In this document: positions 9,001 through 23,280 of the stretch, one piece after another
Layout of the letters: each line of letters starts with the position of its first letter
How positions within the stretch are numbered: position 1 is the stretch's first letter
Origin: a virus
DNA length: 23,280 bases
Direction: 5' to 3' (one strand)
Virus record (IMG/VR): IMGVR_UViG_3300032313_000380
Span: 1-23,280 of that record
Translations under genes and position numbers: made by a program
Notes under the pieces: model-generated
The model's input: only the letters and a program-made list of their open reading frames with translations
The model's database searches: none
What the model was told of the DNA's origin: nothing

Positions 9001-10788
9001 ACAGACTCAATATTTGATTTTACTAGATTTTCAAGGGTCGACAGTGGTAATGTTTTACTAAATGCAGCAGATAGAATTTTAGCGTACTATACACCTGAAA
9101 TAGGCATGCCAGGTAAATCACTTGCACAACTGATTAACGGAGTAGAATATCCAGGAATCAGAGTTGATGGCCCAGGATTTAGAGCCAATACATTTGAAGT
9201 CACTAGCAATGTTATTTCGTTTAATTACACTGGCCTCACAATGGACAGCGGCAATGTTGATGCATTTAATTTCCAAACGTTGGGATTTGAAATAAATCAA
9301 GGCATCAGAATTGAAGCATTGGTACCCTTTAACTTCCAAAACAACGGATATTTTACTATCATTAGTGTTGACCGCGATTCAATGACATTGACTGGACAAC
9401 CCGTAGAGACAACATACAAATTGATGTTGGATGCTCCGATTACGGCGAATTCTGGTGATTATATTACTCAAGCAAATACATTAGCAAATGCGTATGTACT
9501 ACAGTCAGTTACGAATTCTACTCAGGTGGATATAATATACTCAGTGCCAGAATTTGCAGTATCGTCGAATATTATTAGCATCAATGGCACAGTCACTGGA
9601 TCTAATATTGCACAAATTACCACAGGCGGTAATGCTAATGTTATTATATCGTATCTTGATCTGCAGACTACATTGGATTCAAATATTTATAGTACCTATT
9701 TGGATACAGAATTAGGAACAAGACCACAAGACATAAACATCGTGGGCGGAGCTTATGTTGATGCCTATGTAAGTCATGCTCCGGAAGAATTATTACCTGG
9801 CAGAATTTATGATGCCATGGAAATAAATGTGTTTAGCAACACCGCGGGAAATACTGCAACTTACGGATACAGGGTTTTCCAGCCAATGAGTGCAAACATT
9901 GAATATACAAGAATAAGTGCCAATGCCACAACAACACTTTCTGCTAATTTAGAATTAACAGATGATGAAATCTTGGTAACAGATGTGACAAAATTACCAA
10001 CACCAAGTCCTGATTTAGGAACTCCCGGCATAGTGTTTATCAATGGCGAACGAATCGTGTATTATCAAAAATACGATTTTGCTAAAATGTCAACTGCTAT
10101 TGCCTGGACCGCAAATACACAGATACCTATAAACACTTTAATTGCTCTTAATAGCAATGTTTATTTGACCACCGGTAATGTATATGCAAATGCCAATGTG
10201 TATGTTAATTCTGCCAACATTCAATTGATTACAATAAATTCACTGAGACAACTACGTAGAGGTGTAGATGGCACAGGTGCCTCAAATATTGTACTTGCTG
10301 GTAATCTAGTGTCGGACAGCAGTCAAGCACAACTGATTCCAAATGCACAAATTTATAGTTCAGTAACAGTAAGTGGAAATCTTAAAGTTACTTCAAATGT
10401 AACTTATAAATTAATATTAAGTTCAACTGTTACTGCCAACATTGGTGATTATATCACACAATTTGCCAATACAGGTAATGCTAGAGTACTACAGAGTGTA
10501 ACAAATGCAAATGTTGTTCCTGTTGATTTTGTTACTGGTACGTTCCGAACAGCAGCAAACATAGGTACACGAATAAATCTTGTTAGCTTAACTAGCGGGA
10601 TTACAAACATAAATGCCAATGTTATTAGTTTGAATACATTGGGTTCTGTAAATTCAAACGGAAATGTTGTGCTATCAAGTGTATCGTTATTAAGAAGTAA
10701 CATCTGGGAACAATTTGGTACAACCCTGCAAAACAGCACTACCATTGGAGCACAATTTATCAGAGCGGAGCCTAGTTATACACCATGA
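1..10788 (+). CDS. Giant virion structural protein (5' partial), with FG-GAP beta-propeller
   Basis: The frame is open from base 1 to a TGA at 10786-10788, giving at least 3,595 residues; the true start lies upstream, and the GTG at 34 is only the first in-window start codon. Residue numbers count base 1 as residue 1. Modules seen in order: a conserved phage structural segment with LGLYPKY near 489, then GHDGS...FGDFRDD...LELE around 514-541; a segment with DTDRPHTNPWEML near 630-645; a seven-repeat FG-GAP propeller at about 1561-2170; a WWDLS-containing segment near 2274; a GGGGTGATA...NPGSGYT module at about 2866-2920; and a C-terminal GERIVYY/LRQLRRGVDGTG module at about 3349-3428. From memory, such segments occur in large uncharacterised structural proteins of T4-like cyanophages and related aquatic phages. 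The likely role is baseplate or distal tail structure, possibly host contact. Codon phase is uninterrupted. Stop and next start overlap as ATGA. Phage structural identity is fairly sure; exact place in the virion is not. Confidence 0.8.
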   Translation, partial: RAYIQEATDATVEEGQTIIVNSGSNGQKQWYFNGTIWIESQQKQTVNQPPLFDVINSDGISFGDNSVYPGTTFIGSKIFSYKIGTGSDDSVLGFPLSYKNLITQGDIQFENNFDLDTFNYILSAGITDTVDVNSGLIQKNLSRTTSTRLNTWAINSNFSKQYQIFNFTYDGITNLFPVDILPNISVDIPNIKVVINSLPVANGQFGITKVIDKLAILVDPGLLTTGDVVFVSIFNSTSTSTQGFYQVPVNFDINSLNTDLETLTLGQMRNHLIEYKNNSLDIVGNVPGNSNIRDINFVNRAGSILQHSAPIIYSGLFLNHPTMNFVDSLRLASREYSQFKIKFLELAANLELDRTNIAACVDIIMSVLNNVKNDNFPYHYSDMIPHGEDDRIVLPSYTVFDTDIRAYEITSIFQDSVVNNKAVLIYLTRQLNGIVTTTLLVNGQDYYFDQTRPAVVIQDSFNLLYNDIISVVEYNNTDGSYVPETPTKLGLYPKYVPNIFVDNTYRTPIQVIQGHDGSLTPTFGDFRDDVLLELERRIYNNIKVKYDPVNFNINDYVPGKWRLLDYTHQEFNQLLSRSFLNWVGTNRVDFTTNNTFKASDAFTWNYKKFRDVINGETLPGTWRSIFRYFFDTDRPHTNPWEMLGFSEKPAYWDDRYGPAPYTGGNIVLWSDLESGYIHAGPRAGIDLRYSRPGLISVIPVDDSGNLRNPSEFLVTDFDSANANTSFAVGDIGPTELAWRRSSDFPFALQYALAIGKPARYFGLLADVQRYNRSTTTSQFVDSVNNKHIQPNILRINGYINTDGTIERSAGYLNWIKDYLKNIGITDAGTVLKENLSRITVQLAYKMAGYSDKRFLELLAEQVSPSSVNDSVVIPEENYSIELYKGAPLSKITYSAVIVEKSVNGYTVSGYNITDPYFYIIPSLPNNNAYTVEVDGQRGTIYKDFKSQRFTIPYGFEFNSKQQVVDFLVSYQRYLIAQGFIFEDRDNLLNENKDWILSAKEFLHWTNQGWKIGNILVLSPVSTTIKIFNEVAVVDEITNTSSGSRVLDINYQPIRKNNFTIVRDSNLFTLKSLNEQTVGFAEFNLIQYEHLLVLDNTTVFKDVIYVPETGNRQYRLKLVGAKTGFWNGSLELPGYVYSSDYIDDWQPGQDYLKGTVVSNKLRYYAAIENISAADQFQTTLWKQLGQNELKSGVINNFATNASQSLQYYDINSQPLDEQIQLFSNGLIGFRPRQYFTNLGIDIVTQSKFYQGLIKQGGTTNAISALKGAQFNNLNTELNFFENWAVRVGEYGAIDINQFYEFILPDAEFDNNPAVFQLTDGTTTAQIDIKTFNSATTYKISGSFTANFLRTETIDQPAELKTLPVAGFVNLDDVDSTIFNITDYAKYSNIVNNMGEGYTLWTARDYNNQWNVYRASSVPGLAFILRYNTDSRAELVISAEHGLEAGDLVALKNFDNRYNGIYQVDSVIDTTRFLITIYNNLQELIDAEAVLGNGIVYKLTSSKLSTPTSITDSTPDNGWIFNDKIWIENLDNKGNWGVYTKTDPWGYQDKIQLGESQYAGNDHFGRAVALDNTGLYLYGGAPDSFNGRVSIYARNSSNGWDSYGSLSGNNPVLDSFGKVLVTATVGSSNYLAVSASDSGNGQGVVYVFENQVLMQILADSAGSPGDEFGASMAISDTATYLYVGAPGANKVYCYALNTPREQTTQNILGSTGVDTFNLNFSATDASDIIVTAPLRSSEYLPGIDYTVATSPDRIIFTVAPISGERITVQKRTYFYSLLDTLPLLSESSAGSKFGSSVVCNSDGSTIAVGASGATVDGLADAGAVHVYHRTVTEFITNGITNTFTLPDNLGALFYVYYNGALLTNGPDYYIIGTNIIQFAGFDIPTAGNNLKVESNQFILDQTIYPETIGIAGGEFGTNLTMCNSGCNIYVSSPTYQEANYRFGLVTRYLNVGRVYGTITGSVQNPTVAVGESIVINNKVVTFTGTTLAVVVSNINGANIPGVTASIVDNKLKIDSDVVVIANKLNIVSGNTGTPLADLGLEDYQYVQVIQHPDMLGETFGSTLKVDQTSGTLAIGSDGADMSILIHIDTTLAVPTVFDSGGTKFVDLITDSGAVYIYNLMANPYEDVDNPALFTFTQKLTGPNLDTGFNFGAAIDLKSDYLIVGVSNDYDLVTEGGSLYYYYNQDAKSGWTLTRYKEPRVDIGAVSNAFLYNISSQNILDFFDYLDPAKGKLLGAVEQELDYKEEYDPASYNQSTRTNTINNTNFYWSDRHTGRTWWDLSVVSFIDYEQDILQYRAKNWGSLFPGSQVIIYEWVESDFLPSQYVNSVGDGIPKYPDDTAYSSVTVVDPTTGIINQKYYYWVSGKTNVNVTQARRTLSVKALESYITSPKDQGIPYLALLAPNSVAVYNINDQLIGNDVAIHMDVSEVRNSNLIHNEWQLVQQNAGAESIPSRAINKLKDSIVGFDNNGLIVPDPLLTAQDKLGILDFPRQTMVVNRIAALREYVETLNTILAQYPILLITTPSSLLLQDPLPASGFDTQTSSVTDLAYLDTDAFANGYKILIPSDSDYQGKWSIYSFNSINDTFELFKLQSFKTDLFWNPVVWYDTTYQNGKEINYTVDIYSDIQALTPAIGDYIKVLDSGQGKWLLYEVLSASSLSLIGAEDGTMQVRSEVYDVTVGAGYDSAVYDSIGFDPQAVQELQNIYNSVYQEMLIGNLSTEFNRLFLTIINFIFAEQKNPDWIFKTSFIDVYHNLRTLEQFPNYVRDNQSFYNDYIQEVKPYRTQIREYVPSYYRQELAQGDWTDFDLPSSYDSRYKTFRIPDISVTSDADLFQTELYSDWANNYKFKITDYIIGNVGLNYTLPPNVEITGGGGTGATAITTIDANGKVSGITVTNPGSGYTVTPNVFINGDGVGATAYPLLKNEFYNSQANLSYNLVRSIDTEIKFDRFAYSSNLVVWQPNTAYANTVITSGNTVVDPGNIYVSSGNIVIYNNQVYLAVNANVTTDSIFDFTRFSRVDSGNVLLNAADRILAYYTPEIGMPGKSLAQLINGVEYPGIRVDGPGFRANTFEVTSNVISFNYTGLTMDSGNVDAFNFQTLGFEINQGIRIEALVPFNFQNNGYFTIISVDRDSMTLTGQPVETTYKLMLDAPITANSGDYITQANTLANAYVLQSVTNSTQVDIIYSVPEFAVSSNIISINGTVTGSNIAQITTGGNANVIISYLDLQTTLDSNIYSTYLDTELGTRPQDINIVGGAYVDAYVSHAPEELLPGRIYDAMEINVFSNTAGNTATYGYRVFQPMSANIEYTRISANATTTLSANLELTDDEILVTDVTKLPTPSPDLGTPGIVFINGERIVYYQKYDFAKMSTAIAWTANTQIPINTLIALNSNVYLTTGNVYANANVYVNSANIQLITINSLRQLRRGVDGTGASNIVLAGNLVSDSSQAQLIPNAQIYSSVTVSGNLKVTSNVTYKLILSSTVTANIGDYITQFANTGNARVLQSVTNANVVPVDFVTGTFRTAANIGTRINLVSLTSGITNINANVISLNTLGSVNSNGNVVLSSVSLLRSNIWEQFGTTLQNSTTIGAQFIRAEPSYTP
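4681..6510 (+). repeat. Seven FG-GAP-type repeats (predicted seven-bladed beta-propeller) in the giant protein
   Basis: Seven copies of an FG-x(8-14)-L/I-x-V/G-x-S/G-A/S pattern occur in frame. Their Phe-Gly pairs lie at about 4684, 4840, 4996, 5371, 5737, 6169 and 6442. Examples are FGASMAISDT followed by YVGAPG, and FGSSVVCNSD followed by IAVGASG. Each is followed by a strand ending in an aromatic such as VYVFE, VYCYAL or VHVYHR. The count matches the seven blades of integrin-alpha-type FG-GAP propellers. The spacing is irregular: extra segments of roughly 60 to 100 residues sit between repeats 3/4, 4/5 and 5/6. Classic calcium-binding DxDxDG loops are not obvious. The repeat pattern is seen directly; the propeller fold and any role in binding are inferred. 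Confidence 0.7.
9412..9528 (+). repeat. C-terminal duplicated module, copy 1 (giant protein)
   Basis: Encodes 39 residues beginning TYKLMLDAPITANSGDYITQ and ending VLQSVTNSTQV. It aligns without gaps to the segment encoded at 10402-10518, with 24 of 39 identical residues counted by eye. The nucleotide sequences have diverged much more at third codon positions, so this is an old duplication rather than a recent one. Confidence 0.8.
10402..10518 (+). repeat. C-terminal duplicated module, copy 2 (giant protein)
   Basis: Encodes 39 residues beginning TYKLILSSTVTANIGDYITQ and ending VLQSVTNANVV. It is the partner of the segment at 9412-9528. About 290 residues separate the copies; that interval holds the GERIVYY/LRQLRRGVDGTG module. 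Confidence 0.8.
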
Positions 10789-12611: not shown

Positions 12612-14102
12612 ATGACAACACGAGTAATTCAAAGAGAATTTGTCGTACAACCAGGTGATGATACATTACCGTCGGTGACTTTAGGATATGCTTGGTCCAG
12701 TTTTATGAACACGTATGCAGTCTGGCCCTCGGGCGCAGGCGATAGTGTGACCATAAGAAGAACTTTGAATTTACAAGCTGGGAACTATTATGTAACCGGC
12801 GCAGTTGACAATTATGGGTCAGTTAATATAAACGGACAGTACAATATATCTTTGTATAACTTTGGTGCAAATATATCAAGAACTTCAACAGGTAATAATA
12901 CAGAAGTCTATCACCCAGGTGGTCCTATGACCATTACCATCAGTGCCACTAATACAGGCGGTCCCAGGGGTGTTGCAGTAACTATATCTGAATACAAACG
13001 AGATGCTACTCCTATATCAGCAGTTGACCAATTCAGATTTGGAACAGGAGCACAGTTCAGATATGGACCACCTTACGTTGGTGCTTTAGTTTGGAGCACT
13101 AGAAGTCCCGGCACAGCAACCGTTGCTAGATATCAAGTCACTATGCCATTCCGCGCCAACATCACAGCACATGTCTGGGGCGCAGGAGCAGGAGCAGGTG
13201 GGTTAGATGGGTCAGAGGGTGGTCGAGGAAGTCCAGGATTGTACAACACAAACTATTTTACAGTAGAACGAGACGACATTATTGAAGTATTTGTTGGTAG
13301 TGGTGGACAGCCAGCTACGCCGACTCGCGCAAGAGTTGGTAGCACTCCAGGTGGTGCCGGCGGTTTTTCGGTTGTGGATATAAATGGCGATACTACAAAA
13401 TCATTTAATGGTGGTCGCGGCGGTAGCGCCGGGCCCGCAGGATGGTCTGGCGGCGGCGGTGGCGGTGGCGGTGCCAGTGGTGTATTAGTTAACGGAACTC
13501 CTGCTGTTGTAGCTGGCGGTGGCGGTGGTGGTGGCGGTGGTGGAGCTTTTACGCAACCGTATGCTGCAAGGCAACAAGGTGACATTACAAAAAATGCTAT
13601 TGGTGCGTCTGGGACTGATTATCGTGGAGAATCAGGATCAAGTAAAGGTGTAAACGAAGGCAGCGGCGACGGTGGTGGTGCAGGAGGTGGCGGCGGTGGA
13701 TACCCGGGCGGACAAGGTGGTGGTACTCCTGGTGGAGACATTCCCGGAGAAGCAGGGCAGTGTGGGGGTAATTATCCAATTTATGCAGCCTCCACTGGGA
13801 CTAATAGCCCTTATTACAAAAGCGGATATGCTGGCGGTAGCAGCCCGCCAAATGGAACAGGACAAAATGGGCGGGTGTTTCTTTTAATTGAACCTATTTC
13901 GTTGGTTTCGGTTAAAGTATCAGATGAGTGGAAACAGGTACAAGAGGCATTTGTAAAAGTTAGTGGGACATGGAAAGACATTGATACAATCTACATAAAG
14001 GTAGATGATAGTTGGCGCGAGCTAAACGGAGTAGGTCAGGGGGATATTACACTCACTGGCAACACTCAGTCTTACGGCACATCAACAAGAAGCTATTCAT
14101 AA
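12612..14102 (+). CDS. Glycine-rich receptor-binding adhesin (496 aa)
   Basis: Probable host-contacting tip protein. Residues 1 to about 185 are beta-rich. Residues about 190-425 are dominated by glycine, with runs of 8 to 10 Gly and GGxGG/PGG patterns (HVWGAGAGAGG at the start, GGYPGGQGGGTPGG later). This resembles phage glycine-rich domains and the polyglycine type II helix bundles known from T-even gp38-type adhesins such as that of Salmonella phage S16. Residues about 434-474 contain three tandem VKVS-x-x-W-K units, a repeat seen in other phage structural proteins. The C-terminus is Thr/Ser-rich. I chose the ATG at 12612, two bases after the previous stop, over the in-frame TTG at 12588 that would run inside the fibre gene; no clear ribosome site is visible for either. 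Role as adhesin is inferred from composition and position. Confidence 0.75.
   Translation: MTTRVIQREFVVQPGDDTLPSVTLGYAWSSFMNTYAVWPSGAGDSVTIRRTLNLQAGNYYVTGAVDNYGSVNINGQYNISLYNFGANISRTSTGNNTEVYHPGGPMTITISATNTGGPRGVAVTISEYKRDATPISAVDQFRFGTGAQFRYGPPYVGALVWSTRSPGTATVARYQVTMPFRANITAHVWGAGAGAGGLDGSEGGRGSPGLYNTNYFTVERDDIIEVFVGSGGQPATPTRARVGSTPGGAGGFSVVDINGDTTKSFNGGRGGSAGPAGWSGGGGGGGGASGVLVNGTPAVVAGGGGGGGGGGAFTQPYAARQQGDITKNAIGASGTDYRGESGSSKGVNEGSGDGGGAGGGGGGYPGGQGGGTPGGDIPGEAGQCGGNYPIYAASTGTNSPYYKSGYAGGSSPPNGTGQNGRVFLLIEPISLVSVKVSDEWKQVQEAFVKVSGTWKDIDTIYIKVDDSWRELNGVGQGDITLTGNTQSYGTSTRSYS
13449..13735 (+). repeat. GGN triplet tracts encoding polyglycine
   Basis: Dense runs of GGC/GGT/GGA triplets occur at about 13449-13472, 13515-13544 and 13671-13735, inside the adhesin gene. 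They encode the polyglycine strands. The near-identical triplets make this the most repetitive DNA in the window and a plausible substrate for slippage or recombination between adhesin alleles. The complementary strand reads as poly-proline, which is only a shadow of this composition. Confidence 0.75.
13911..14033 (+). repeat. Three tandem Trp-containing repeats in the adhesin C-terminus
   Basis: Three units of about 14 residues follow one another: VKVSDEWKQVQEAF, VKVSGTWKDIDTIY and IKVDDSWRELNGV. The conserved positions are the leading V/I-K-V, the Trp at position 7 and a following K/R. Similar K-V-x-G-x-W repeats are common near the ends of phage fibre and tail proteins. Confidence 0.75.
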
Positions 14103-14125: not shown

Positions 14126-14134
14126 CATAAATAA
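14126..14134 (+). promoter_or_regulatory. T4-late-type promoter candidate (CATAAATAA)
   Basis: The intergenic stretch 14103-14156 contains CATAAATAA, one base away from the T4 late promoter consensus TATAAATA. It ends 22 bases before the ATG of the 540-residue fibre. This is one of only two gaps longer than 20 bases in the window, which favours a regulatory role. Such a short AT-rich match could arise by chance. Confidence 0.35.
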
Positions 14135-14156: not shown

Positions 14157-15779
14157 ATGGCATATAATATTACCTTAACTAATGGATCTGCATTAATTGC
14201 TGGCGGATTACCAGATGGTACAATTGATAGTACTAACAGCAGTTTAACCTTAGTTGGTAAAAACTACCCCGGATACGGATTATTTTTGAACCAAAATATG
14301 GTTCGATTGATGGAAAATTTTAGCAATAGTGCTGCCCCTACTGCCCCGTTACCTGGGCAACTTTGGTGGAACTCGGCTACAAAAAATTTATCAGTTAACA
14401 CTGCTGCCACTAAGGGCACAGCCAGTGCTGCATTTAAAACTATCACCACAATGACGTTTTCTTCTAGTGCGCCTAACAACCCAGTATCTGGTGAACAATG
14501 GTACGATACCATTGGCGGACAGTTGAAAGTATGGGCAGGATCGTGGATCACTATTGGACCTGCAGCAACTACCGCAACAGGTAATTCGGGTGCAATACCG
14601 GATACCATTGCAGCTACTAGTCCAAGTGCAACGTATGTTGTGTTAAAATTTTTTATTGACAATGTATTAGTTGGTATCTGGAACAAAGAAGCTTCGTTTA
14701 CAACAGCGGTAGCTGGATTTGCCACTGTTAATAGAGGACTGAATTTAAGCACTGCACTAAGTCAGGCATTTTATGGAAATGCCGACGTTGCAAATAACTT
14801 GTATGTTGGCGGGATAGCCGTTCCTGGTGCTAGCTTTTTACGAAGCGACACTTCGGGTACTGTAAATGGCTCGCTGTCATTGACCAATGACAGTGGATTG
14901 ACATTTGGTGCTGCCGGAGATTTTATAGGATCGGTCAGCAGCGGTGTTGTAACTTTAAGAAATCAAACAAATAACAAAGATTTAATTTTAAGTTTAAGAA
15001 CTGGTGGTGTACAAACTCCGTTTTTACGCGGTAACTATTTGACAGGACTGGCAGAAGCTTACAGCAATCCCACTTCCTCGTCACCTGCATTGACCTTAGC
15101 TACAAAAAATTATGTTGATACACAATTAGGCGGCGGTACTGGTACCAGTTCTTTTACTGCAAATATTACTCCCGGCGCTAATGTATTATACACATTGGGT
15201 AACACTACAAATCGTTGGAGCAATGTATTTTCTCAAAGCGCACTGGTTGGTAATGTGTTTGCAGCTAATGCCAATATCGCAACTGTTTATGTGTCTGGTT
15301 CCATATTGCCTACCTCAAATACCAGCGTAAACATAGGCAGTACTGGTATGTGGTTCAACACCTTTTATGGAGTATCAGTGCAAGCACAATATGCTGACTT
15401 GGCAGAAAGATTTGAAACTGATCAACCTTACAACCCGGGTACAGTTGTTGCGCTTGGCGGAGTTAAAGAAATTACTGCCGCTTCTGAAGAACTCAGTGAG
15501 GATGTATTTGGTGTTATAAGCACACGAGCTGCCTATTTAATGAATGGTGCAGCCGGTAGCGATGAAACACATCCGCCGGTCGCAGTTAATGGTCGTGTTC
15601 CTGTTAGAGTGATTGGTCAAATACGTAAAGGTGATAGACTAGTTAGTGCTGGAGCCGGATTGGCTAGAGCTGGAGCCAAGCACGAATTAAGTGCATTCAA
15701 CGTAATTGGAAGAAGCTTACAAGATAAAACAGACACAGGTGAAGGAACAATTGAAGCCATAGTCAAATTAAATAGTTAA
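14157..15779 (+). CDS. Tail fibre protein with 'YADLAE' C-terminal domain (540 aa)
   Basis: The N-terminus repeats the docking module of the 371-residue fibre: DGTIDSTNSSLTLVG, then NQNMVRLMENF and LPGQLWWNS. A second half-copy follows near residues 105-135 (NNPVSGEQWYDT...WAGSWITIGP). The middle is beta-rich, with a SPALTLATKNYVDTQL motif typical of fibres, followed by two LGNTTNRWSNVF / IGSTGMWFNTFYG strands. The C-terminal domain, residues about 409-540, starts QAQYADLAERFETD and includes VFGVIS, VNGRVPVRVIGQIRKGD and a final GEGTIEAIVKL. This domain closes many phage fibres and may be related to the peptidase G2 self-cleaving chaperone domains; I cannot identify a catalytic residue. The gene has its own GGAG site and a late-promoter candidate, so it may be expressed separately from the adhesin. 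Confidence 0.85.
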   Translation: MAYNITLTNGSALIAGGLPDGTIDSTNSSLTLVGKNYPGYGLFLNQNMVRLMENFSNSAAPTAPLPGQLWWNSATKNLSVNTAATKGTASAAFKTITTMTFSSSAPNNPVSGEQWYDTIGGQLKVWAGSWITIGPAATTATGNSGAIPDTIAATSPSATYVVLKFFIDNVLVGIWNKEASFTTAVAGFATVNRGLNLSTALSQAFYGNADVANNLYVGGIAVPGASFLRSDTSGTVNGSLSLTNDSGLTFGAAGDFIGSVSSGVVTLRNQTNNKDLILSLRTGGVQTPFLRGNYLTGLAEAYSNPTSSSPALTLATKNYVDTQLGGGTGTSSFTANITPGANVLYTLGNTTNRWSNVFSQSALVGNVFAANANIATVYVSGSILPTSNTSVNIGSTGMWFNTFYGVSVQAQYADLAERFETDQPYNPGTVVALGGVKEITAASEELSEDVFGVISTRAAYLMNGAAGSDETHPPVAVNGRVPVRVIGQIRKGDRLVSAGAGLARAGAKHELSAFNVIGRSLQDKTDTGEGTIEAIVKLNS

Positions 15780-15780
15780 T

Positions 15781-15784
15781 AGGA
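15781..15784 (+). promoter_or_regulatory. Ribosome binding site (AGGA) for the 320-residue structural gene
   Basis: AGGA lies 10 bases before the ATG at 15795, just after the stop of the fibre gene. Confidence 0.6.
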
Positions 15785-15794
15785 ATAAACAAAT

Positions 15795-16757
15795 ATGTCA
15801 TACGCACAGGGTAGTTTAATTGAAGCAACTGATTATAATAATATAATTGGAGCCAATACCAGTAGTAATCCAAGTACGTTTCATGCGGTATGGGCATGGG
15901 GAAACGGTAGTAGAGGCTATGGACAAACTACTATCAGTAATGTTTCTATTGCAGGAACTGTAACTGCGACTCAATGGGCCACTTTAGTTAACAATGTCAA
16001 CAGTGCAAACATACATATCCGCAATACCGGTTCGGGACTTACAGCCAACACCGCAGGTCAAACCATTGGGTTTTCAGCTGGGCTTCCTGTAACAATTACA
16101 CTATTAAATCAAGACAGATTATTGTTTGCCACCAACTCAGCGGTGGTAGTCAACCAAAACAGTTTAACAGCATACAGCGCATGGACCAGTGCCAATACAG
16201 CTAGCACATTGACTAGAAGCTTTGGTGCCAATGTGGCCTTTGAAAGTCCAGATCGAGCAAGATTTTTCTTTAATGCCGGCGGTACATTGAAGTTTAATGT
16301 CAGTTGTGTAAATGGTGGTGGAGCCGGATCTAGATCTGAGGCAGTAACCAATTTGTTTGATAATTTAGGTGGTGTAGCAACATTTGGTGCAAACATAAAT
16401 GGCGGAAGAACCGGTACTGGCGGTACACTGGGAACCAATGATATAGACAAGGGATATTATTCGGCTACAATAGCCAATATTACTATAGTTGCAGTAACCA
16501 GTACAACAACCAATTATACTACAGATACAGCAACAATCACATATAGAACAAACGGTACGCAAGGTCAACACAATGACAACGGCACTATCATAAGTTTATG
16601 GTGTAACATATCCTCAACTTCTGGTGGCAATAGCGGCGGCCAATTTGATGATTCGTTAAATGTAACACCAACTGTTACGATTGATGTTTCCTATCCAGAA
16701 ACAACCAATTTGGCAAATACCTGGGGTGCAGTAACAGTTACTCGCCAAGGTTCCTAA
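15795..16757 (+). CDS. Phage virion structural protein of the tail-fibre region (320 aa)
   Basis: Residues about 32-70 carry VWAWGNGSRGYGQTTISNV followed by GTVTATQWATLVNNVN. From memory this GYGQ...VTA-x-QWA pattern is a widespread uncharacterised structural family found near fibre genes of aquatic phages. The rest is low-charge and beta-rich, with Gly/Asn/Thr-rich stretches (GGRTGTGGTLG and STSGGNSGGQ) and ends in WGAVTVTRQGS. There are no membrane segments or catalytic motifs. It is the last gene of the structural block; the next gene is preceded by a new promoter. The assignment as a virion protein is fairly firm from family pattern and context, but whether it is a fibre, a collar or an adhesin component is unknown. 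Confidence 0.75.
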   Translation: MSYAQGSLIEATDYNNIIGANTSSNPSTFHAVWAWGNGSRGYGQTTISNVSIAGTVTATQWATLVNNVNSANIHIRNTGSGLTANTAGQTIGFSAGLPVTITLLNQDRLLFATNSAVVVNQNSLTAYSAWTSANTASTLTRSFGANVAFESPDRARFFFNAGGTLKFNVSCVNGGGAGSRSEAVTNLFDNLGGVATFGANINGGRTGTGGTLGTNDIDKGYYSATIANITIVAVTSTTTNYTTDTATITYRTNGTQGQHNDNGTIISLWCNISSTSGGNSGGQFDDSLNVTPTVTIDVSYPETTNLANTWGAVTVTRQGS

Positions 16758-16764
16758 AAAAGTC

Positions 16765-16794
16765 TTTACATTTTAATACTGATTAGTGTATAAT
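16765..16794 (+). promoter_or_regulatory. Strong sigma70-type promoter
   Basis: TTTACA at 16765-16770 (five of six matches to TTGACA) and a perfect TATAAT at 16789-16794 are separated by 18 bases. It sits in the 68-base gap between the last structural gene and the 104-residue gene, 31 bases upstream of the ATG at 16826. This is the only near-consensus sigma70 promoter I noticed in an intergenic position. It should drive the overlapping genes from 16826 to beyond the window. Confidence 0.75.
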
Positions 16795-16802
16795 AGCACT
16801 AA
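16783..16802 (+). promoter_or_regulatory. Inverted repeat enclosing the -10 box (possible operator)
   Basis: Arms TTAGTG (16783-16788) and CACTAA (16797-16802) are exact reverse complements with an 8-base spacer that contains the TATAAT box. A repressor binding here would block the promoter. There is no T-tract, so it does not read as a terminator. Six-base arms can arise by chance. Confidence 0.4.
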
Positions 16803-16825
16803 CCAGTACCTACATTTAAATTATT

Positions 16826-17140
16826 ATGAATAGCATTGATGATATTGTAACCGAAGTGCGGCGAGCCACGGATTTTCAAATTAACAAGCAGATTTTGCGA
16901 GAAAAAATTCAAACAGATCTGCATATGACACATAACGGGGGGATGTTCAAGATCACTCCGGAACTGTTGGCATTTGTAAAAACATGGCCCGTAGATGAAC
17001 TTTATTTAGAGGATGTGTACGAAAATCCCATTCAAATTGATCAACAGGTGTTTCTAGTAACTGCACAACAACATTATCAAATTGTAATGAACACATGGCA
17101 CAATGAGTATGAAGAACTCAAAAAAATTAGAAAAATCTAG
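16826..17140 (+). CDS. Conserved phage hypothetical protein (104 aa)
   Basis: A small acidic protein with the pattern LREKIQTDLHMTHNGGMFKI, then TPELLAFVKTW and LYLEDVYENPIQI, ending in QQVFLVTAQQHYQIVMNTWHNEY. From memory, similar short proteins without assigned function occur next to structural genes in T4-like aquatic phages. It is predicted mostly helical, with no signal peptide, membrane segment or metal-binding motif. It is the first gene after the sigma70-type promoter. No good ribosome site precedes its ATG. Its last 38 bases overlap the next gene in another frame. Function unknown. Confidence 0.7.
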   Translation: MNSIDDIVTEVRRATDFQINKQILREKIQTDLHMTHNGGMFKITPELLAFVKTWPVDELYLEDVYENPIQIDQQVFLVTAQQHYQIVMNTWHNEYEELKKIRKI

Positions 17141-17897
17141 AGGAATTGTAGCGTTTGCTTACAATGTTGACACTATTGATTATGTTTCAATAGCTCACAA
17201 TTCTTTACAATTGGCTAGCAAAAAACTTGGATTGCCGTACACTCTAATTACGGACAGTGAATTACAAAATGATCTTTTTACGATGCGACATGATATTGAT
17301 TCAGGCGAATTTATTAAATGGCGTAATGTAGGCAGGCATCATGCATACGAGTTGAGTCCATACAACGAAACTTTGGTAATTGACGTGGATTATTTGATAT
17401 TAGACAATAATCTAAACAAAATTTTTAACATTGAATGGGATTACTTGTTGGCACGTGATAGCCGAGCATTGACTATTACATGGCCTGACCAGATGGGCAA
17501 TACCAGTTTACCTTATGTATGGGCCACAGTATTTGCTTTTAGAAAAACAGACAGAGCTAAAATGTTTTTTGATCTAGTGGGCAGAATTCAAAGAAATTAT
17601 TCTTATTACCGAGCATTGTTTAATATTGACAATCGCAATTTTAGAAATGACTTTGCATTTGCAATAGCTGATGTGATTCTAAACGGGTACACACTAGATA
17701 AAAAATCTATTCCAGGAAGTGTAATAGCTGTAGATCAGTCAATTGATACCATAAACATAATTGAAGGAAAGATTGTTATCAAAGATAAAAACAAATCTTA
17801 CGTATTACCGCACACAAATTTACATGTAATGAGCAAAGCTTATTTACAAAGCAATAACTTTAAAAATTTTGTCAGTCAAATAATCAATGAACCATAA
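17103..17897 (+). CDS. Glycosyltransferase-like protein with DVD motif (264 aa)
   Basis: Resembles GT-A-fold nucleotide-sugar transferases. The N-terminus has RGIVAFAYN followed by a segment reading LQLASKKLGLPYTLIT, as expected for a Rossmann-like first half. LSPYNETLVIDVDYLIL places a DxD-type metal and nucleotide-sugar motif at residues 94-96. A later ATVFAFRKTDRAKMFFDLV and a DFAFAIADVIL segment match equivalent parts of the next protein, so the two are paralogs. Two in-frame starts, 17103 and 17109, both overlap the 104-residue gene; conservation begins only at residue 14, so the choice is open. Its 3' end overlaps the next gene by 11 bases. The glycosyltransferase reading rests on motif and pattern only; donor and acceptor are unknown. 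Confidence 0.6.
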   Translation: MSMKNSKKLEKSRGIVAFAYNVDTIDYVSIAHNSLQLASKKLGLPYTLITDSELQNDLFTMRHDIDSGEFIKWRNVGRHHAYELSPYNETLVIDVDYLILDNNLNKIFNIEWDYLLARDSRALTITWPDQMGNTSLPYVWATVFAFRKTDRAKMFFDLVGRIQRNYSYYRALFNIDNRNFRNDFAFAIADVILNGYTLDKKSIPGSVIAVDQSIDTINIIEGKIVIKDKNKSYVLPHTNLHVMSKAYLQSNNFKNFVSQIINEP

Positions 17898-18708
17898 AGC
17901 ACAATTGGGATTTTTAACTGTGGCCTGTAATACAGAGCAGACTGATTATTTACATTTGGCTTATGTACAGGCTTTAAATGTCAAACGAACACAAAAGAAC
18001 AATCAATTTGCAGTTGTGGTTGACAAAAATACATTGGAAAAAATAACAGATCAACATAAAAAAACATTTGACTATATCATTGAGGCACCCGAACACACAT
18101 TTGGACCATACGGTACAGAAGCATTCGTATTTGATTTAACTCCATTCAAGGAAACAATTAAATTAGAAAGCGATTTAGTATTCACAAGGAGCATTGACCA
18201 TTGGATACATGTATTTAGATTGAGAGACATGGTACTAAGTACCGGCTGCAGAAATTACAAACAACAAATTGCTACCAGTAGAAAATATAGAAAAACATTT
18301 GATGATAACAGTTTGCCTGATGTTTATAACGGGCTCATGTATTTTAGATTCACCAAAACAGCGCGAGATTTTTTTGACACAGCAAAAAAAATATACAGCA
18401 GTTGGAACAGTATTATTGATGTTTTAAAAAATTGTAGAGAGACTGTACCCAGCACTGATATAGTTTTTGCATTAGCAGCTAGAATAGTAGGCGAAGAACT
18501 TTGTACGTTACCCAGTGCAGACTTTGTAAATTTTGTACATATGAAATCTGCTATCAATAGATTTGACGAAGGCCTGTCATTTGATGAAGTGTTTGTTACT
18601 GAAATTGATCAAGGTATGATACGTATCAACAACATAAATCAATTGCATCCGTTACACTATTACAATAAAAATTTTGTCAAACAGCTAGCAGAGTATTATG
18701 AACAATGA
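17887..18708 (+). CDS. Glycosyltransferase-like paralog with ESD in place of DxD (273 aa)
   Basis: Paralog of the preceding protein. LTPFKETIKLESDLVFT aligns with LSPYNETLVIDVDYLIL at the same residue number, so E94-S-D96 replaces D94-V-D96. NGLMYFRFTKTARDFFDTA and DIVFALAARIV match the later paralogous segments. The N-terminus, GFLTVACNTEQTDYLHLAYVQAL, resembles the opening of the neighbour. The first acidic residue of DxD is Glu, which could still bind a metal or could mark altered activity. The start ATG overlaps the previous gene by 11 bases and has no clear ribosome site, so it probably depends on coupling. The next gene overlaps its end by 11 bases. Enzymatic activity is an inference. 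Confidence 0.55.
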   Translation: MNHKAQLGFLTVACNTEQTDYLHLAYVQALNVKRTQKNNQFAVVVDKNTLEKITDQHKKTFDYIIEAPEHTFGPYGTEAFVFDLTPFKETIKLESDLVFTRSIDHWIHVFRLRDMVLSTGCRNYKQQIATSRKYRKTFDDNSLPDVYNGLMYFRFTKTARDFFDTAKKIYSSWNSIIDVLKNCRETVPSTDIVFALAARIVGEELCTLPSADFVNFVHMKSAINRFDEGLSFDEVFVTEIDQGMIRINNINQLHPLHYYNKNFVKQLAEYYEQ

Positions 18709-19069
18709 CCTATGGGACGAAGTTGTTAAGTTAGTAGCAGATTATGATGCTGCCAGGACTGCAATTACAAAAGAATACAGATTGTATTACAACACAGATG
18801 GTACCATTGTTAGTCTATGGGAAAGTGATCATCCCGAAGGTAACAATTATATTGTATTAGACAATCCAGGTGTATTTTATCATACAAATACCATGTTGTT
18901 ACGAGTTCGTGATAAAAAGTTAATAGTGCTTGATCCTCGCGCACCAACACGAACAAGATTAAAAAAATCAATAGTGGGATTTCCAGTTGTGAAAAATAAC
19001 TCGGCATTAATTTTAGAAGCCAATGAAACATATACTGAAGTTGAATATTATGACCGAACAAATAATTGA
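18698..19069 (+). CDS. Conserved phage hypothetical protein (123 aa)
   Basis: The recognisable core is ITKEYRLYYNTDGTIVSLWE, then GNNYIVLDNPGVFYHTN and LLRVRDKKLIVLD. From memory, short proteins with an EYRLYY-D-x-x-G pattern and a G-N-Y-I-x-I-D segment are common hypotheticals in aquatic T4-like phages. A beta-rich fold is likely. There is no leader-type or cysteine-rich segment that would suggest a peptide substrate for the radical SAM enzymes downstream. It sits between two glycosyltransferase-like genes and overlaps both neighbours. Function unknown. Confidence 0.65.
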   Translation: MNNDLWDEVVKLVADYDAARTAITKEYRLYYNTDGTIVSLWESDHPEGNNYIVLDNPGVFYHTNTMLLRVRDKKLIVLDPRAPTRTRLKKSIVGFPVVKNNSALILEANETYTEVEYYDRTNN

Positions 19070-19979
19070 TATTGCAGATTTAGATTGCGTTTTCTTAACT
19101 TATGATGAACCTAAAAAAGAAGAGTTTTGGATCCGGATTCAAAACATGGTGCCGTGGGCAAAGAGAGTTGATGGAGTTAAAGGATCGGATTCGGCGCATA
19201 AGGCAGCAGCGGCAGCGTCGTCCACAGAACGATTTGTTCTTATTGATGGTGATAATATACCCGACCCTGAGTTTTTTAATTTACAATTATCACTTGACGA
19301 AACGAATCATGACCACGTTTTTAGATGGAAGGCACGTAACGTTATTAATGGACTAATGTATGGCAACGGTGGTATGAGTTGCTGGACTCAAGACTTTGTC
19401 AATAACATGCGTACACATGAAGCCAGTCGAGGTGATGAAGAAACTGCTGTGGAGTTTTGTTTTGATCCAAAATACACAGCCATGCACAACTGCTACAGCA
19501 CTACATACCCAAATGGTAGTGCTAAACAAGCATGGAGAGCAGGATTTAGAGAAGGTGTCAAGATGTGCCTTAATAGAGGGCACAAACCCTCACTAGCAGA
19601 GTTTGAGCAAGGTGTGTATAAAAGAAACTATGATCACTTGTGTATCTGGCACAGTGTAGGTGCAGATGTAGAGAATGGTTATTGGGCCATGTATGGTGCA
19701 CGATTGGGTACATTTATGATTATGTTAGAAGGATGGGATCACCACCAAGTACAAGACTTTGACATGCTTGAAAACTTATGGTCTATGTTTAATAAAGAAG
19801 ATCCCCAAGAAGGCTGCGAAAGAATAGAGAACGCTTTAAAGAACAGACTAGGACTACCTATTGTCACATATACACCTGAACAAAGTCAATTCTTCAAACA
19901 TCACTACACTACAGGACAACGCAACAGTGAAATCATGATGACAGAGTTATCTGTTATTAGGAGACAAGAAGGATGGTAA
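19050..19979 (+). CDS. Glycosyltransferase-like phage protein with DGD motif (309 aa)
   Basis: The N-terminal half reads DLDCVFLTYDEPKKEEF, then WAKRVDGVKG and AHKAAA, and then RFVLIDGDNIPDPEF. The DGD at residues 66-68 is where a GT-A DxD motif would be expected. I recall this 'LTYDEP...VKG...AHKAAA...DGDN' pattern from many large aquatic phages, where it is annotated as glycosyltransferase-like or hypothetical. The C-terminal half is unusual, with many His, Cys, Trp and Tyr residues (LCIWHSVGADVENGYWAMYG). It shows no close resemblance to the two paralogs upstream beyond the DxD region. I chose the ATG at 19050, which overlaps the previous gene by 20 bases; an upstream ATG at 19023 would add nine residues and a 47-base overlap. 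Activity and substrate are unproven. Confidence 0.65.
   Translation: MTEQIIDIADLDCVFLTYDEPKKEEFWIRIQNMVPWAKRVDGVKGSDSAHKAAAAASSTERFVLIDGDNIPDPEFFNLQLSLDETNHDHVFRWKARNVINGLMYGNGGMSCWTQDFVNNMRTHEASRGDEETAVEFCFDPKYTAMHNCYSTTYPNGSAKQAWRAGFREGVKMCLNRGHKPSLAEFEQGVYKRNYDHLCIWHSVGADVENGYWAMYGARLGTFMIMLEGWDHHQVQDFDMLENLWSMFNKEDPQEGCERIENALKNRLGLPIVTYTPEQSQFFKHHYTTGQRNSEIMMTELSVIRRQEGW
19959..19963 (+). promoter_or_regulatory. Ribosome binding site (AGGAG) for the SGNH-like gene
   Basis: AGGAG lies 9 bases before the ATG at 19973, inside the end of the preceding gene. It is among the best ribosome sites in the second region. Confidence 0.65.
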
Positions 19980-20545
19980 ATTTATATCTGGATGGCTGTA
20001 GTTTTACCCACGGCGTGGGAATTGACATAACAGATAGATTAGCACACTTGTTCGAGCAGGCTGGATACAATGTTTTAAACTTTTCACGACCCGGAAAAAG
20101 TAACATAGCAATAGCTCAAGATACATATAATAATTCTAATAATGCAGATGTTTTTGTTTTAGGTTTTACTTTTTCACAACGATTTCATTGTAAATTTGGC
20201 GAATATGACATTGATTTATTACCGTCAAATGTTGCTTGGCCAATAGAGACAGAAAAAATGCAAGGTACTGAAATAGAAAATATTTTAAATTCTTTGCATA
20301 AAAACTTTTATCTACTGTTTGACATAAACCATTGGAATAGCACGTCAGACATGTTGATTGATAACACATTAGATTCTTTAAAATTTAAAAATAAAAAAGT
20401 TTTTGCTTTTTCTTGGCAGCAGAGAAGTACTCAAAATAAACTAGTATATCCACTGATAACCGACAGATTAAAAGATGGTCACTTGAATAATAAAGGAACA
20501 AAAAAATTATTTGATTTAATACAAAACAATCTAGGTAATCCATGA
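19973..20545 (+). CDS. SGNH/GDSL hydrolase-like phage protein (190 aa)
   Basis: The N-terminal LYLDGCSFTHGVG has the position and shape of SGNH block I, with Ser10 as the likely nucleophile. RPGKSN at residues 40-45 provides the Gly and Asn of later blocks, and DGHLNNKGT at 168-176 gives the Asp168 and His170 expected for the catalytic pair. All four hallmark elements can therefore be seen. Families of this kind hydrolyse esters, often acetyl groups on sugars. It overlaps the preceding glycosyltransferase-like gene by 7 bases and the next radical SAM gene by 4 bases (ATGA), so it is probably cotranslated with both. The activity fits a glycan-modification role, but the substrate is not known. 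Confidence 0.7.
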   Translation: MVNLYLDGCSFTHGVGIDITDRLAHLFEQAGYNVLNFSRPGKSNIAIAQDTYNNSNNADVFVLGFTFSQRFHCKFGEYDIDLLPSNVAWPIETEKMQGTEIENILNSLHKNFYLLFDINHWNSTSDMLIDNTLDSLKFKNKKVFAFSWQQRSTQNKLVYPLITDRLKDGHLNNKGTKKLFDLIQNNLGNP

Positions 20546-21924
20546 CTAAGAGTAATTTCATGTCAGCAGCAGAAGAAATGAAGGACAAACTAGGTCCCAG
20601 TCTCTGCTTGGCCAAGTGGCAACAGGTAAGTTTACATTTACCTACCGGATTAACAAACAGTTGCTATCATCCGCCCTTGCACGAAATAGATGCCACACTA
20701 TTAAAAGACAATCCAGGTGCATTACATAACACACCTTATAAAAAAGCGCAACGTGTAATTATGTTAAAGCAAGAACGCCCGTCAGAATGTAGTTACTGTT
20801 GGACACAAGAAGATTTGGGCAATTTAAGTGATAGGCATTATCGTTCAGGTGAGCCGTGGGCCGCCGAACACTTTGAGGAGATTGCGAATGCAACAGGCGA
20901 CGAGGACCCTGTTCCTTCCTATGTGGAAGTCAATTTTAATCATGCTTGCAATCTTAAGTGCTCCTATTGTAGTCCTCAGTTTAGTAGTAGCTGGGATGAT
21001 GAAGTGGGACGTTTTGGAGGATATCCCACTAGCACTGTTCATAACGATCCTTCCCATTTTAGCGGTCGCAGACGACCTATCCCTGTTCGAGAGGATAACC
21101 CTTATGTTGATGCATTCTGGGAATGGTGGCCTAGCCTATATCCCAAACTAAAACATTTTCGTATGACTGGCGGCGAACCCTTGATGGACCGGAACACGTA
21201 CCGAGTATTTGATTATGTGCTGGCCTTGCCCAATCCAGAGTTACATATTGATGTTACCAGTAACTTTAGCGTAGAAGAAGCACTGTGGGAAAAGTATCTT
21301 GGATACACACAACGCCTGTGTACAACCAACATAGAACACTTTATGCAATATGTCAGTTTGGATTCCGGTGATCCGGCTCATGCACGATATATTAGACACG
21401 GATTAGACTTCTGGCGAGTTATTAGACGCACAGAAGAATTCTTATCCAAAGTACCTGAACGTAATAGTTTAACATTCATTATCACAATGAGTAATTTAAA
21501 CATTTTGGGATTACGGAAACTATTGGAACATGTATTAGACTTGCGAGACATGCACAGCCATACCTATCAACGTGTTTGGTTTGATACTCCACTACTACGT
21601 CAACCCACATGGCAAAGTTTACAAATACTACCTGCAGTATATGCAAATAGACTACAGGATGTTGTGGATTGGATGAATGCCAATCTAGAAACTGCAGAAC
21701 GTCCATTTCACGGATTCAAAGATTACGAAGTACAAAGATTGCAACGTGTAGTGGATTGGATGCAAGAAGGTCGTAAATTACAACCAGAGTATGTTAAACT
21801 ACAACGTGCTGATTTTTATAGATTCTTTAATGAGCACGACAAACGTAGGAAAACAGATTTTATAAACACATTTCCGGAGATGCGAGAGTTCTGGGAGGAA
21901 TGTAGATATCATGCCCAACAGTAA
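20542..21924 (+). CDS. Radical SAM protein with N-terminal cysteine-rich (twitch-like) domain (460 aa)
   Basis: CNLKCSYC at residues 136-143 is the CxxxCxxC motif that binds the 4Fe-4S cluster and S-adenosylmethionine; MTGGEPL at about 207-213 is the usual GGE motif. Before the core domain are Cys22, TNSC41YHPP and EC83SYC86W, with a characteristic NPGALHNTP segment between them. These could ligate an auxiliary cluster. This arrangement, extra cluster first and radical SAM second, matches what I recall as the 'N-terminal twitch domain radical SAM' family, frequent in aquatic phages and without known substrate. The start overlaps the SGNH gene as ATGA, and the end overlaps the next radical SAM gene by 14 bases. 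The N-terminus is strikingly similar to the truncated gene at the end of the window. Radical SAM identity is firm; reaction unknown. Confidence 0.85.
   Translation: MTKSNFMSAAEEMKDKLGPSLCLAKWQQVSLHLPTGLTNSCYHPPLHEIDATLLKDNPGALHNTPYKKAQRVIMLKQERPSECSYCWTQEDLGNLSDRHYRSGEPWAAEHFEEIANATGDEDPVPSYVEVNFNHACNLKCSYCSPQFSSSWDDEVGRFGGYPTSTVHNDPSHFSGRRRPIPVREDNPYVDAFWEWWPSLYPKLKHFRMTGGEPLMDRNTYRVFDYVLALPNPELHIDVTSNFSVEEALWEKYLGYTQRLCTTNIEHFMQYVSLDSGDPAHARYIRHGLDFWRVIRRTEEFLSKVPERNSLTFIITMSNLNILGLRKLLEHVLDLRDMHSHTYQRVWFDTPLLRQPTWQSLQILPAVYANRLQDVVDWMNANLETAERPFHGFKDYEVQRLQRVVDWMQEGRKLQPEYVKLQRADFYRFFNEHDKRRKTDFINTFPEMREFWEECRYHAQQ
21893..21899 (+). promoter_or_regulatory. Ribosome binding site (GGGAGGA) for the second radical SAM gene
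   Basis: GGGAGGA lies 11 bases before the ATG at 21911, within the 3' end of the first radical SAM gene. It is the longest Shine-Dalgarno match noticed in the window and favours that start. Confidence 0.65.
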
Positions 21925-23050
21925 CACATTTTGCCCATTGCCATTTTTTCAAGTGGTAGTAAGAACTGACGGAACAATGAGTCCATGTTGTGCAATGAGG
22001 GGAACTGCTATTGCAAATATTAAAAATTCCAATATATTGGAATTTTGGGAAAGTGACGCCTTAAAAAAAATCAAAGACCAAATGATAAATGGCACTGACA
22101 AAATTGATGGTTGCAAAGAGTGTTATCACGATGAGAGATTGATTGGGCAATCAATGAGAACCAGTGCATTACAAAAATACAAGTTTCTAAACGATCGCAT
22201 GTACTCAAAATTAATTGACCATTATGGATACTTAAATAAAAAAGCACCAAGTTGGTTAGAGATGCATTTGGGTAATACTTGTAATCTCAAATGCCTTATA
22301 TGTCGTCCAGAAGATAGTTCGATGTTTTTGCAAGAAAATCGTGTAATTGGAATAAGCAAACACAATCAGTCTGATTACACATTAAATAAAGACACAGTTG
22401 ATTTCAATATCGATTTGATAATAGACCACCTGGACGTATTGGATTTACGAGGTGGGGAAAGTTTACTTGTTCCGGCAATTAAACAAAAATTAAAAGAAAT
22501 TTCTCCTACAAAATGTGCAAATAAAACATTAAGAATACAAACCAACGGTACAATTTTAGACGATATCTGGAAAACTATTTTCAATAAGTTTCGATCTGTG
22601 GAAATTATGTTATCAATAGATGCATACGGCGATGATAATTTCTATATACGATACCCAGCTGACTGGAACACCATAGAGAAAAATGTTGATTATTTTATCA
22701 GCGCAGGACATGAACTATCTATTAACTGTACTGTAAGTAATCTTAACTTTTTGTTATTAGACAAGTTACTGGCCTGGGTAACCAAAAAGAAAATTTATTT
22801 TCATTACGCACTGTTAAAAAATCCAGATTACTATCATTTTTCTAATTTGCCAGAGACAGTAATAGATAATGCCAAAAAAAAATTAGCACTATGGGTAACA
22901 TTATATCCATCACTGACAGGTTTACTTTCAGTTGTTTCAACTACAGATAATTGGAATACATTTTGCGAAATGATTAACAAACGAGATTTATACAGAAAAA
23001 ATAGCATTTTCAAAATTTTACCACAACTAAAAGAATATTGGAATGCCTAA
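21911..23050 (+). CDS. Radical SAM protein with N-terminal SPASM/twitch-like domain (379 aa)
   Basis: CNLKCLIC at residues 124-131 is the CxxxCxxC cluster motif, and LRGGESL at 179-185 is the GGE motif. The first 75 residues look like a SPASM or twitch domain placed at the N-terminus: FC8PLPF, DGTMSPC26C27, an 'ILEFWESDALKKIK' segment, and C68KEC71YHDE. In SPASM proteins this set normally follows the radical SAM domain, so the order here is reversed. It differs clearly from its 460-residue neighbour in sequence, so the two are not recent duplicates. It overlaps the gene before by 14 bases and the gene after by 8. Radical SAM identity is firm; the substrate is unknown. Confidence 0.85.
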   Translation: MPNSNTFCPLPFFQVVVRTDGTMSPCCAMRGTAIANIKNSNILEFWESDALKKIKDQMINGTDKIDGCKECYHDERLIGQSMRTSALQKYKFLNDRMYSKLIDHYGYLNKKAPSWLEMHLGNTCNLKCLICRPEDSSMFLQENRVIGISKHNQSDYTLNKDTVDFNIDLIIDHLDVLDLRGGESLLVPAIKQKLKEISPTKCANKTLRIQTNGTILDDIWKTIFNKFRSVEIMLSIDAYGDDNFYIRYPADWNTIEKNVDYFISAGHELSINCTVSNLNFLLLDKLLAWVTKKKIYFHYALLKNPDYYHFSNLPETVIDNAKKKLALWVTLYPSLTGLLSVVSTTDNWNTFCEMINKRDLYRKNSIFKILPQLKEYWNA

Positions 23051-23280
23051 AATAAACAATGAAACAGATTTAGAATACAAACACAGAGTGATCGACATCA
23101 AGTCAGAATCATTCTGCGGCGCAAAATGGTACAACGCAACCATATGGCTAGGATCAGGTATGACTACCAGTTGTCATCATCCGTTGCCACATAAAGTAAG
23201 TGTTGAAGAAGTCAAAGCAAATCCCAAGGCATTACATAATACACCCAAAAAGAAGTCAGAACGACTAATGATGCAAACAG
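23043..23280 (+). CDS. Third radical SAM-type protein, N-terminus only (3' cut by window end)
   Basis: Starts with an ATG overlapping the previous stop by 8 bases and stays open for 79 codons to the window edge. The visible residues include FC25GAKWYNATIWLGSGMTTS, then C44HHPLPH and NPKALHNTPKKKSERL. They align with the N-terminus of the 460-residue protein: C-x-AKW, S-C-H/Y-HP and NP-x-ALHNTP-x-KK are shared. The CxxxCxxC radical SAM motif would be expected about 90 residues further on, outside the window. Membership in the same family is therefore inferred from the N-terminal domain alone. No strong ribosome site precedes it, so coupling to the upstream gene is likely. Confidence 0.75.
   Translation, partial: MPKINNETDLEYKHRVIDIKSESFCGAKWYNATIWLGSGMTTSCHHPLPHKVSVEEVKANPKALHNTPKKKSERLMMQT

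Follow-up and report, generated by a model that had tools for sequence, protein, structure and literature searches.

Arrays of radical S-adenosylmethionine (SAM) genes beside fiber genes have so far drawn comment as isolated cases, in a small number of large phages. The host-recognition clusters of pelagimyophages contain cassettes of GT8 and radical SAM genes (PMC7029224), and the Aeromonas jumbo phage vB_AerVM_332-Vera carries eight radical SAM genes in its structural/tail-fiber cluster, an arrangement that its authors called highly unusual (PMC12390700). The T4-like marine genome TARA_ERS488813_N000010 has 12 radical SAM genes along with paaD, grx and an A-type carrier (PMC5332604). Here, we analyzed the IMG/VR virus record IMGVR_UViG_3300032313_000380 (23,280 bases; the window, at its full length), in which glycosyltransferase (GT) and radical SAM genes form an operon that opens at position 16765, behind a run of tail-fiber-like genes, and continues to the window end.

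Like the pelagimyophage cluster, the window places GT8-type GTs and radical SAM genes by the tail fibers of a T4-like myophage; however, that cluster is hypervariable, with cassettes that come and go, whereas the lineage of the window is jumbo and has a fixed ten-gene core with its own promoter (PMC7029224). TARA_ERS488813_N000010 shares the big radical SAM set and phage-borne iron-sulfur (Fe-S) assembly genes, but the available part of that report presents them as Fe-S metabolism and describes neither a GT operon nor a conserved order (PMC5332604). Phage 332-Vera also has its radical SAM array amid fiber genes; it belongs to another phage family (PMC12390700), and we likened it to the window by description only. 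Jumbo cyanophage capsular polysaccharide clusters likewise combine paralogous GTs with nucleoside diphosphate (NDP)-sugar enzymes, but they are sporadic and polymorphic, and radical SAM goes unmentioned in the main text (PMC7824862). The cultured 255-kb Vibrio phages K566 and K567 (OZ196521.1 and OZ196593.1) carry several neighboring genes related to the NCBIfam model NF033640 (N_Twi_rSAM, with an N-terminal twitch/SPASM part), which served as our family test at its curated cut-off of 170 bits; two of these genes score above it. Their identity to rSAM-D of the operon is 21.6%, and the locus lacks relatives of GT1, GT2, GT3, hypA and hypB. A literature search for earlier accounts of a phage operon with radical SAM and GT genes returned partial precedents only. 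This kind of locus is already known, in looser versions, from pelagimyophages and 332-Vera; the fixed ten-gene core, its slots and its promoter are undescribed as far as that search shows.

A ten-gene core in fixed order

Nine plus-strand open reading frames (ORFs), called mechanically, run from 16826 to the window end, all touching or overlapping. A scan with rSAM-A returned 292 relatives, of which 80 were kept, giving 81 loci with the window; all relatives used in this study are metagenomic contigs. Allowing for genes lacking at contig ends, the order hypA-GT1-GT2-hypB-GT3-A-B-C-D-E-U361 was followed with 0 violations across the 81 loci. The core comprises ten genes, hypA, GT1, GT2, hypB, GT3 and the orthologous N-SPASM radical SAM genes A to E, an array that extends past the window. 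As an answer to the rSAM-A selection of this first set, we chose another 80 contigs by GT3, 68 of them new by contig name. GT2 lay upstream in 80/80, and rSAM-A downstream in all 61 with enough DNA. Among contigs chosen by their capsid gene, those of 374 kb, 318 kb (in a reduced form), 175 kb and 92 kb carried the operon; GT3 was not found in capsid-chosen contigs of 157 kb and 126 kb, nor in most shorter fragments. Since the genes co-occur in both GT3- and capsid-chosen contigs, the set is not scattered.

The junctions GT1/GT2, GT2/hypB, hypB/GT3 and B/C were almost never interrupted. Cargo genes occupied slots at GT3/A (51/78 loci), A/B (47/79), D/E (31/67) and C/D (13/67). Against three relatives, dN/dS (the ratio of nonsynonymous to synonymous substitution rates) was about 0.03-0.05 for GT3, 0.1 for rSAM-A and 0.08-0.2 for GT1/GT2, values that are rough because dS is near saturation. 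The core genes are under purifying selection.

The first-pass annotation had recorded the genes, their order and their overlaps correctly, and had proposed that they may form one pathway acting on a virion component, the host envelope or a small molecule. A conserved unit behind a single promoter agrees with the one-pathway part of that proposal, from which two members, the SGNH-like gene and rSAM2, have to be struck as exchangeable cargo. It had also named the finding that would overturn it, namely related phages carrying the genes singly and with no shared order; the unbroken order in the 81 loci and the neighbors kept in the GT3-chosen contigs gave no such result.

The virus behind the window is an uncultured jumbo myovirus, T4-like (Gp23), and the window covers a fragment of its genome. 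A Gp23-type capsid protein (PF07068) was found in 10/11 related large contigs that share the cassette, the capsid region itself lying outside the window. The nearest cultured capsids, at 65-69% identity, are those of Vibrio phage 2.275.O, Sinorhizobium phage Phosso, PA5oct (Arenbergviridae) and Eneladusvirus, and these phages have zero genes above the N_Twi_rSAM cut-off and zero GT3. A tblastn search of 50,697 phage records gave no match for rSAM-A, GT3, GT2, the SGNH-like protein or hypA, and three distant records for rSAM-D.

Enzymes of the core and exchangeable cargo

GT1 (17103..17897) has a DVD motif. Its predicted model (pLDDT, the predicted local distance difference test, 92.6) matched glycogenin (Z 13.3 over 201 residues), LgtC (Z 12.6), Mimivirus R699 and a PBCV-1 glycosyltransferase (Z 12.6) that was crystallized as involved in major-capsid glycosylation. 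On the strength of the model, a GT-A/GT8-type fold can be predicted confidently for GT1, and its residues D94 and D96 are invariant, so that a metal-binding DxD is present. GT2 (17887..18708) is a paralogue of GT1 (hhalign 99.5%) in which ESD replaces DxD, with E94 and D96 invariant at that position, and its profile matches glycogenin (E=3e-4). GT3 (19053..19979) carries an invariant DGDN and, at a mean column identity of 66%, is the best conserved protein of the core. Glycosyltransferases topped its Foldseek list against PDB, none of them at E<=0.001; GT3 is a probable GT-A enzyme. Sequence searches with GT1 and GT3 against solved structures found nothing credible, and a close-range pattern search for GT3 relatives in bacterial and archaeal genomes found none. 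A second GT3-like domain, about 27% identical, is embedded in ORFs 440-960 aa long at other places in five of the genomes (G001, G023, G024, G014 and G028).

The first radical SAM gene of the window, rSAM-A (20542..21924), is a core gene with an N-terminal twitch/SPASM part. It is followed by rSAM2 (21911..23050), a radical SAM/SPASM enzyme in the optional A/B slot with SPASM (PF13186) at residues 8-72, and by core rSAM-B (23043..23280), which runs off the window end and is 74-85% identical to its counterparts in L008 and L007. NF033640 scored 293.4 bits for rSAM-A, 280.9 for rSAM2 and 288-398 for B to E of another locus, L018; the 79 aa of rSAM-B present in the window, shortened by its end, scored 35.5. 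In a tree of 187 radical SAM proteins from 40 loci, we noted one-per-locus groups that track position: A with 40 members (support 0.78), B with 36 (0.95), D with 32 (1.0) and E with 28 (1.0), while C fell into two clades of 25 and 10. CX3CX2C is kept in all 187 proteins, and large contigs hold 7-19 N_Twi_rSAM genes each.

A sequence search with rSAM-C against solved structures returned nothing. Its relatives in genomes come from Bdellovibrionota, Elusimicrobia, Bacteroidota and others, and cellular relatives of the family turn up repeatedly in predatory bacteria. A Bacteriovoracaceae metagenome-assembled genome (MAG) has about eight family genes in near-tandem, seven on one strand (L188, 4163-16186), and the Elusimicrobia MAG bin-0981 has more than 10 rSAM-C relatives on several contigs (L191-L194, L197, L199-L204, L206 and L208), a large bacterial expansion. 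A contig binned as Flavobacterium sp. (L185) carries, besides more radical SAM genes, one for an rSAM-C protein that shares 52% identity with its phage counterpart; the contig is probably phage DNA inside a bacterial bin, and a possible hint at the host.

Cargo and downstream genes include those for UDP-glucose dehydrogenase, NAD epimerase, DegT aminotransferase, APS kinase, carbamoyltransferase and SGNH/DUF6071 proteins; SGNH and carbamoyltransferase genes stand behind the core. A Stf0-like sulfotransferase fell slightly below the Pfam cut-off, and further sulfotransferase-like cargo proteins were recognized without Pfam support, solely by visual inspection of an N-terminal motif. At six loci, a cargo slot is taken by an Fe-S assembly gene (PF01883). 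In the GT3/rSAM-A slot, the window carries an SGNH/GDSL-like protein without a signal peptide (19973..20545) as cargo. Its GDSL-like DGCSFT and DGHLNNKG motifs were read directly, with no Pfam match, and for a downstream relative the Lipase_GDSL_2 match (1.4e-4) falls short of the cut-off while the DUF6071 match exceeds it. Related genes occur in just 7 loci, 5 of them, of the same sequence cluster, in the GT3/rSAM-A slot. The remaining core genes are small: hypA (16826..17140, 104 aa) has no match in solved structures or in phage records, and hypB (18698..19069, 123 aa), which evolves fast, gave nothing credible by sequence against solved structures.

Most of the enzyme assignments of the first-pass annotation stood. 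The two paralogous GT-A-like proteins are borne out by the alignment and the GT1 fold, and the sugar-modification theme is backed by the NDP-sugar, sulfotransferase-like and carbamoyltransferase genes. The DGD-type GT keeps its motif, with a weak fold placement among GT-A-like proteins. The SGNH-like protein keeps its motifs and loses its place in the pathway core. As for the three radical SAM genes, the first two pass NF033640 and the third is the rSAM-B orthologue, but rSAM2 is not core and the full array has five core genes.

Promoter, hairpin and late-like sites

The cassette opens with a plus-strand sigma-70-type promoter, TTTACA-18-TATAAT (16765..16794; -35 at 16765, -10 at 16789), an 11/12 match and the best one in 15700-23280. 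Sigma-70 sites occur in this region at chance frequency (32 vs 30.1 in shuffles), so support for the promoter comes solely from conservation across loci. A match of at least 10/12 lies ahead of hypA in 44/66 distinct upstreams, vs 2.3% of mononucleotide shuffles, and ahead of GT1, GT2 and GT3 in 0-3 of about 68. The operon promoter is real, as the first-pass annotation had it. An inverted repeat, TACTGATTAGTG-TATAATAG-CACTAACCAGTA (16777..16808, plus strand), spans the -10 and is a possible terminator or operator. A strong hairpin lies 5' of hypA in 46/66 loci vs 2.4% of shuffles, over the -10 in 24 loci (window included) and 5' of it in 15. In the latter, the -10 ends ~6 bases ahead of the ATG, which would point to a leaderless message.

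In T4, early promoters are of the sigma-70 type and the late promoter is TATAAAT (PMC3037559). In the window, a T4-late-promoter-like site, CATAAATA (14126..14133), the sole [CGT]ATAAATA on the plus strand, lies ahead of a fiber gene encoding 540 aa. More widely, NATAAATA (at least 7/8 to TATAAATA) precedes 73% of 99 fiber genes vs 24% in shuffles, mostly 20-26 bases 5' of the start, and no such site was found in the cassette. The late reading is drawn from fiber genes only, because the capsid gene showed no enrichment of the motif (19% vs 23%). The sigma-70 site at the operon and the late-like sites at the fibers make it probable that transcription of the operon is separate from, and earlier than, that of the fiber genes.

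The upstream block is a run of tail-fiber-like proteins with PHROG tail-fiber matches and a Peptidase_G2 domain. The 540-aa fiber-like protein (14157..15779, plus strand) matches Peptidase_G2, an autoproteolytic chaperone, and a conserved 320-aa protein (15795..16757, plus strand), whose family is present in 76/81 loci, lies immediately 5' of the cassette. Further upstream, a structural block holds an ORF of at least 3,595 aa (1-10788) with an open 5' end and repeated FG-GAP-like motifs, noted by eye. A 496-aa protein (12612-14102) in the fiber block has a long polyglycine-rich stretch and resembles the glycine-rich adhesins of T4-type phages. An 84-aa acyl-carrier-protein-like gene separates the fiber block from hypA in four closely related contigs (L060-L063), and L050 has a similar gene.

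What the operon may modify

We tentatively propose, at a little less than an even chance, that this lineage-conserved operon encodes a cytosolic pathway that builds and tailors a glycan, with a tail-fiber/adhesin protein as the most likely acceptor. The strong sigma-70-type promoter, in or behind the hairpin, opens the operon, and the hairpin may end the upstream fiber transcript; a host-type promoter suggests that enzyme synthesis starts ahead of that of the late fiber proteins and does not depend on it. Both GT8-type enzymes and GT3 would make a short glycan in the cytosol, and the N-SPASM radical SAM enzymes might act on the sugars or the acceptor by C-H chemistry (epimerization, dehydrogenation or cross-linking). 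Cargo enzymes may attach acyl, sulfate or carbamoyl groups that vary by phage. The acceptor would be a phage tail-fiber/adhesin protein from the adjoining genes, and is favored because the core enzymes look soluble and cytosolic, with no convincing membrane segments in the core proteins, and because the operon always lies against fiber genes.

Several points weigh against this proposal. Computation picked out no acceptor, sugar donor or product, and searches gave no assignment for U361, hypA or hypB. The best fold match of GT3 is weak (Z 7.8) and covers the N-terminal half only. We know of no characterized member among the N_Twi radical SAM enzymes, and a Pfam scan of 58 neighbors of bacterial rSAM-C relatives revealed no shared theme. 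Moreover, in many phages no such enzymes are needed for the fiber proteins to function. A promoter of the sigma-70 rather than the late type is at least as compatible with host takeover as with virion maturation, and the published view of the pelagimyophage GT8 genes is host O-chain modification (PMC7029224).

An operon that instead makes or alters the lipopolysaccharide or capsule sugars of the infected cell, excluding sibling phages (superinfection exclusion), is unlikely in our judgment, though far from implausible. Host-surface remodeling is the published reading of the pelagimyophage GT8/radical SAM genes (PMC7029224) and of the jumbo cyanophage GT clusters (PMC7824862), and an early-type promoter and cargo typical of surface glycans both fit it. 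Yet convincing membrane segments are missing from every core gene product, the loci showed no flippase, polymerase or ligase, and the core is strongly conserved and not polymorphic, unlike the sporadic cyanophage clusters. It is improbable that the operon makes a short phage peptide in the manner of ribosomally synthesized and post-translationally modified peptides, matured by the radical SAM enzymes and glycosylated by the GTs for release against the host or competitors. The N-SPASM enzymes do match many peptide maturases weakly, and hypA and hypB are small core proteins; however, neither has a core-peptide-like tail, no exporter was seen, and there is no space for a precursor ORF because the genes overlap throughout. 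We give very little weight to a loose island of morons held near the fibers with no common pathway: the cargo slots do carry unrelated, fast-exchanged genes, but ten core genes keep an invariant order, overlaps and co-occurrence, and five radical SAM groups are kept in parallel at low dN/dS. DNA hypermodification, in which GTs and radical SAM enzymes would decorate a modified base much as T4 glucosylates hydroxymethylcytosine, is barely credible and was rejected on the thymidylate synthase evidence: despite the early-type promoter and the place of carbamoyltransferases and radical SAM enzymes in some base hypermodification pathways, thymidylate synthase is single in 16/22 contigs and lacking in 6, with no hydroxymethylase-like second copy, the two that were read carry canonical LPPCH and PFN motifs, and the operon lies in the fiber region, away from replication genes.

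The fullest form of the fiber-glycan proposal, a phage assembly line of radical SAM and GT enzymes that places carbon-centered modifications and a decorated glycan on the phage's own tail-fiber adhesins, is distinctly doubtful. If true, it would mean that radical SAM enzymes mature a virion protein and that exchangeable decorating enzymes tune receptor contact. Fixed across hundreds of environmental contigs and missing in the closest cultured relatives that were checked, the ten-gene core appears to be a trait that defines a jumbo phage lineage. Its gene set, promoter and order offer a concrete handle on how phage radical chemistry may remodel virions or host surfaces.

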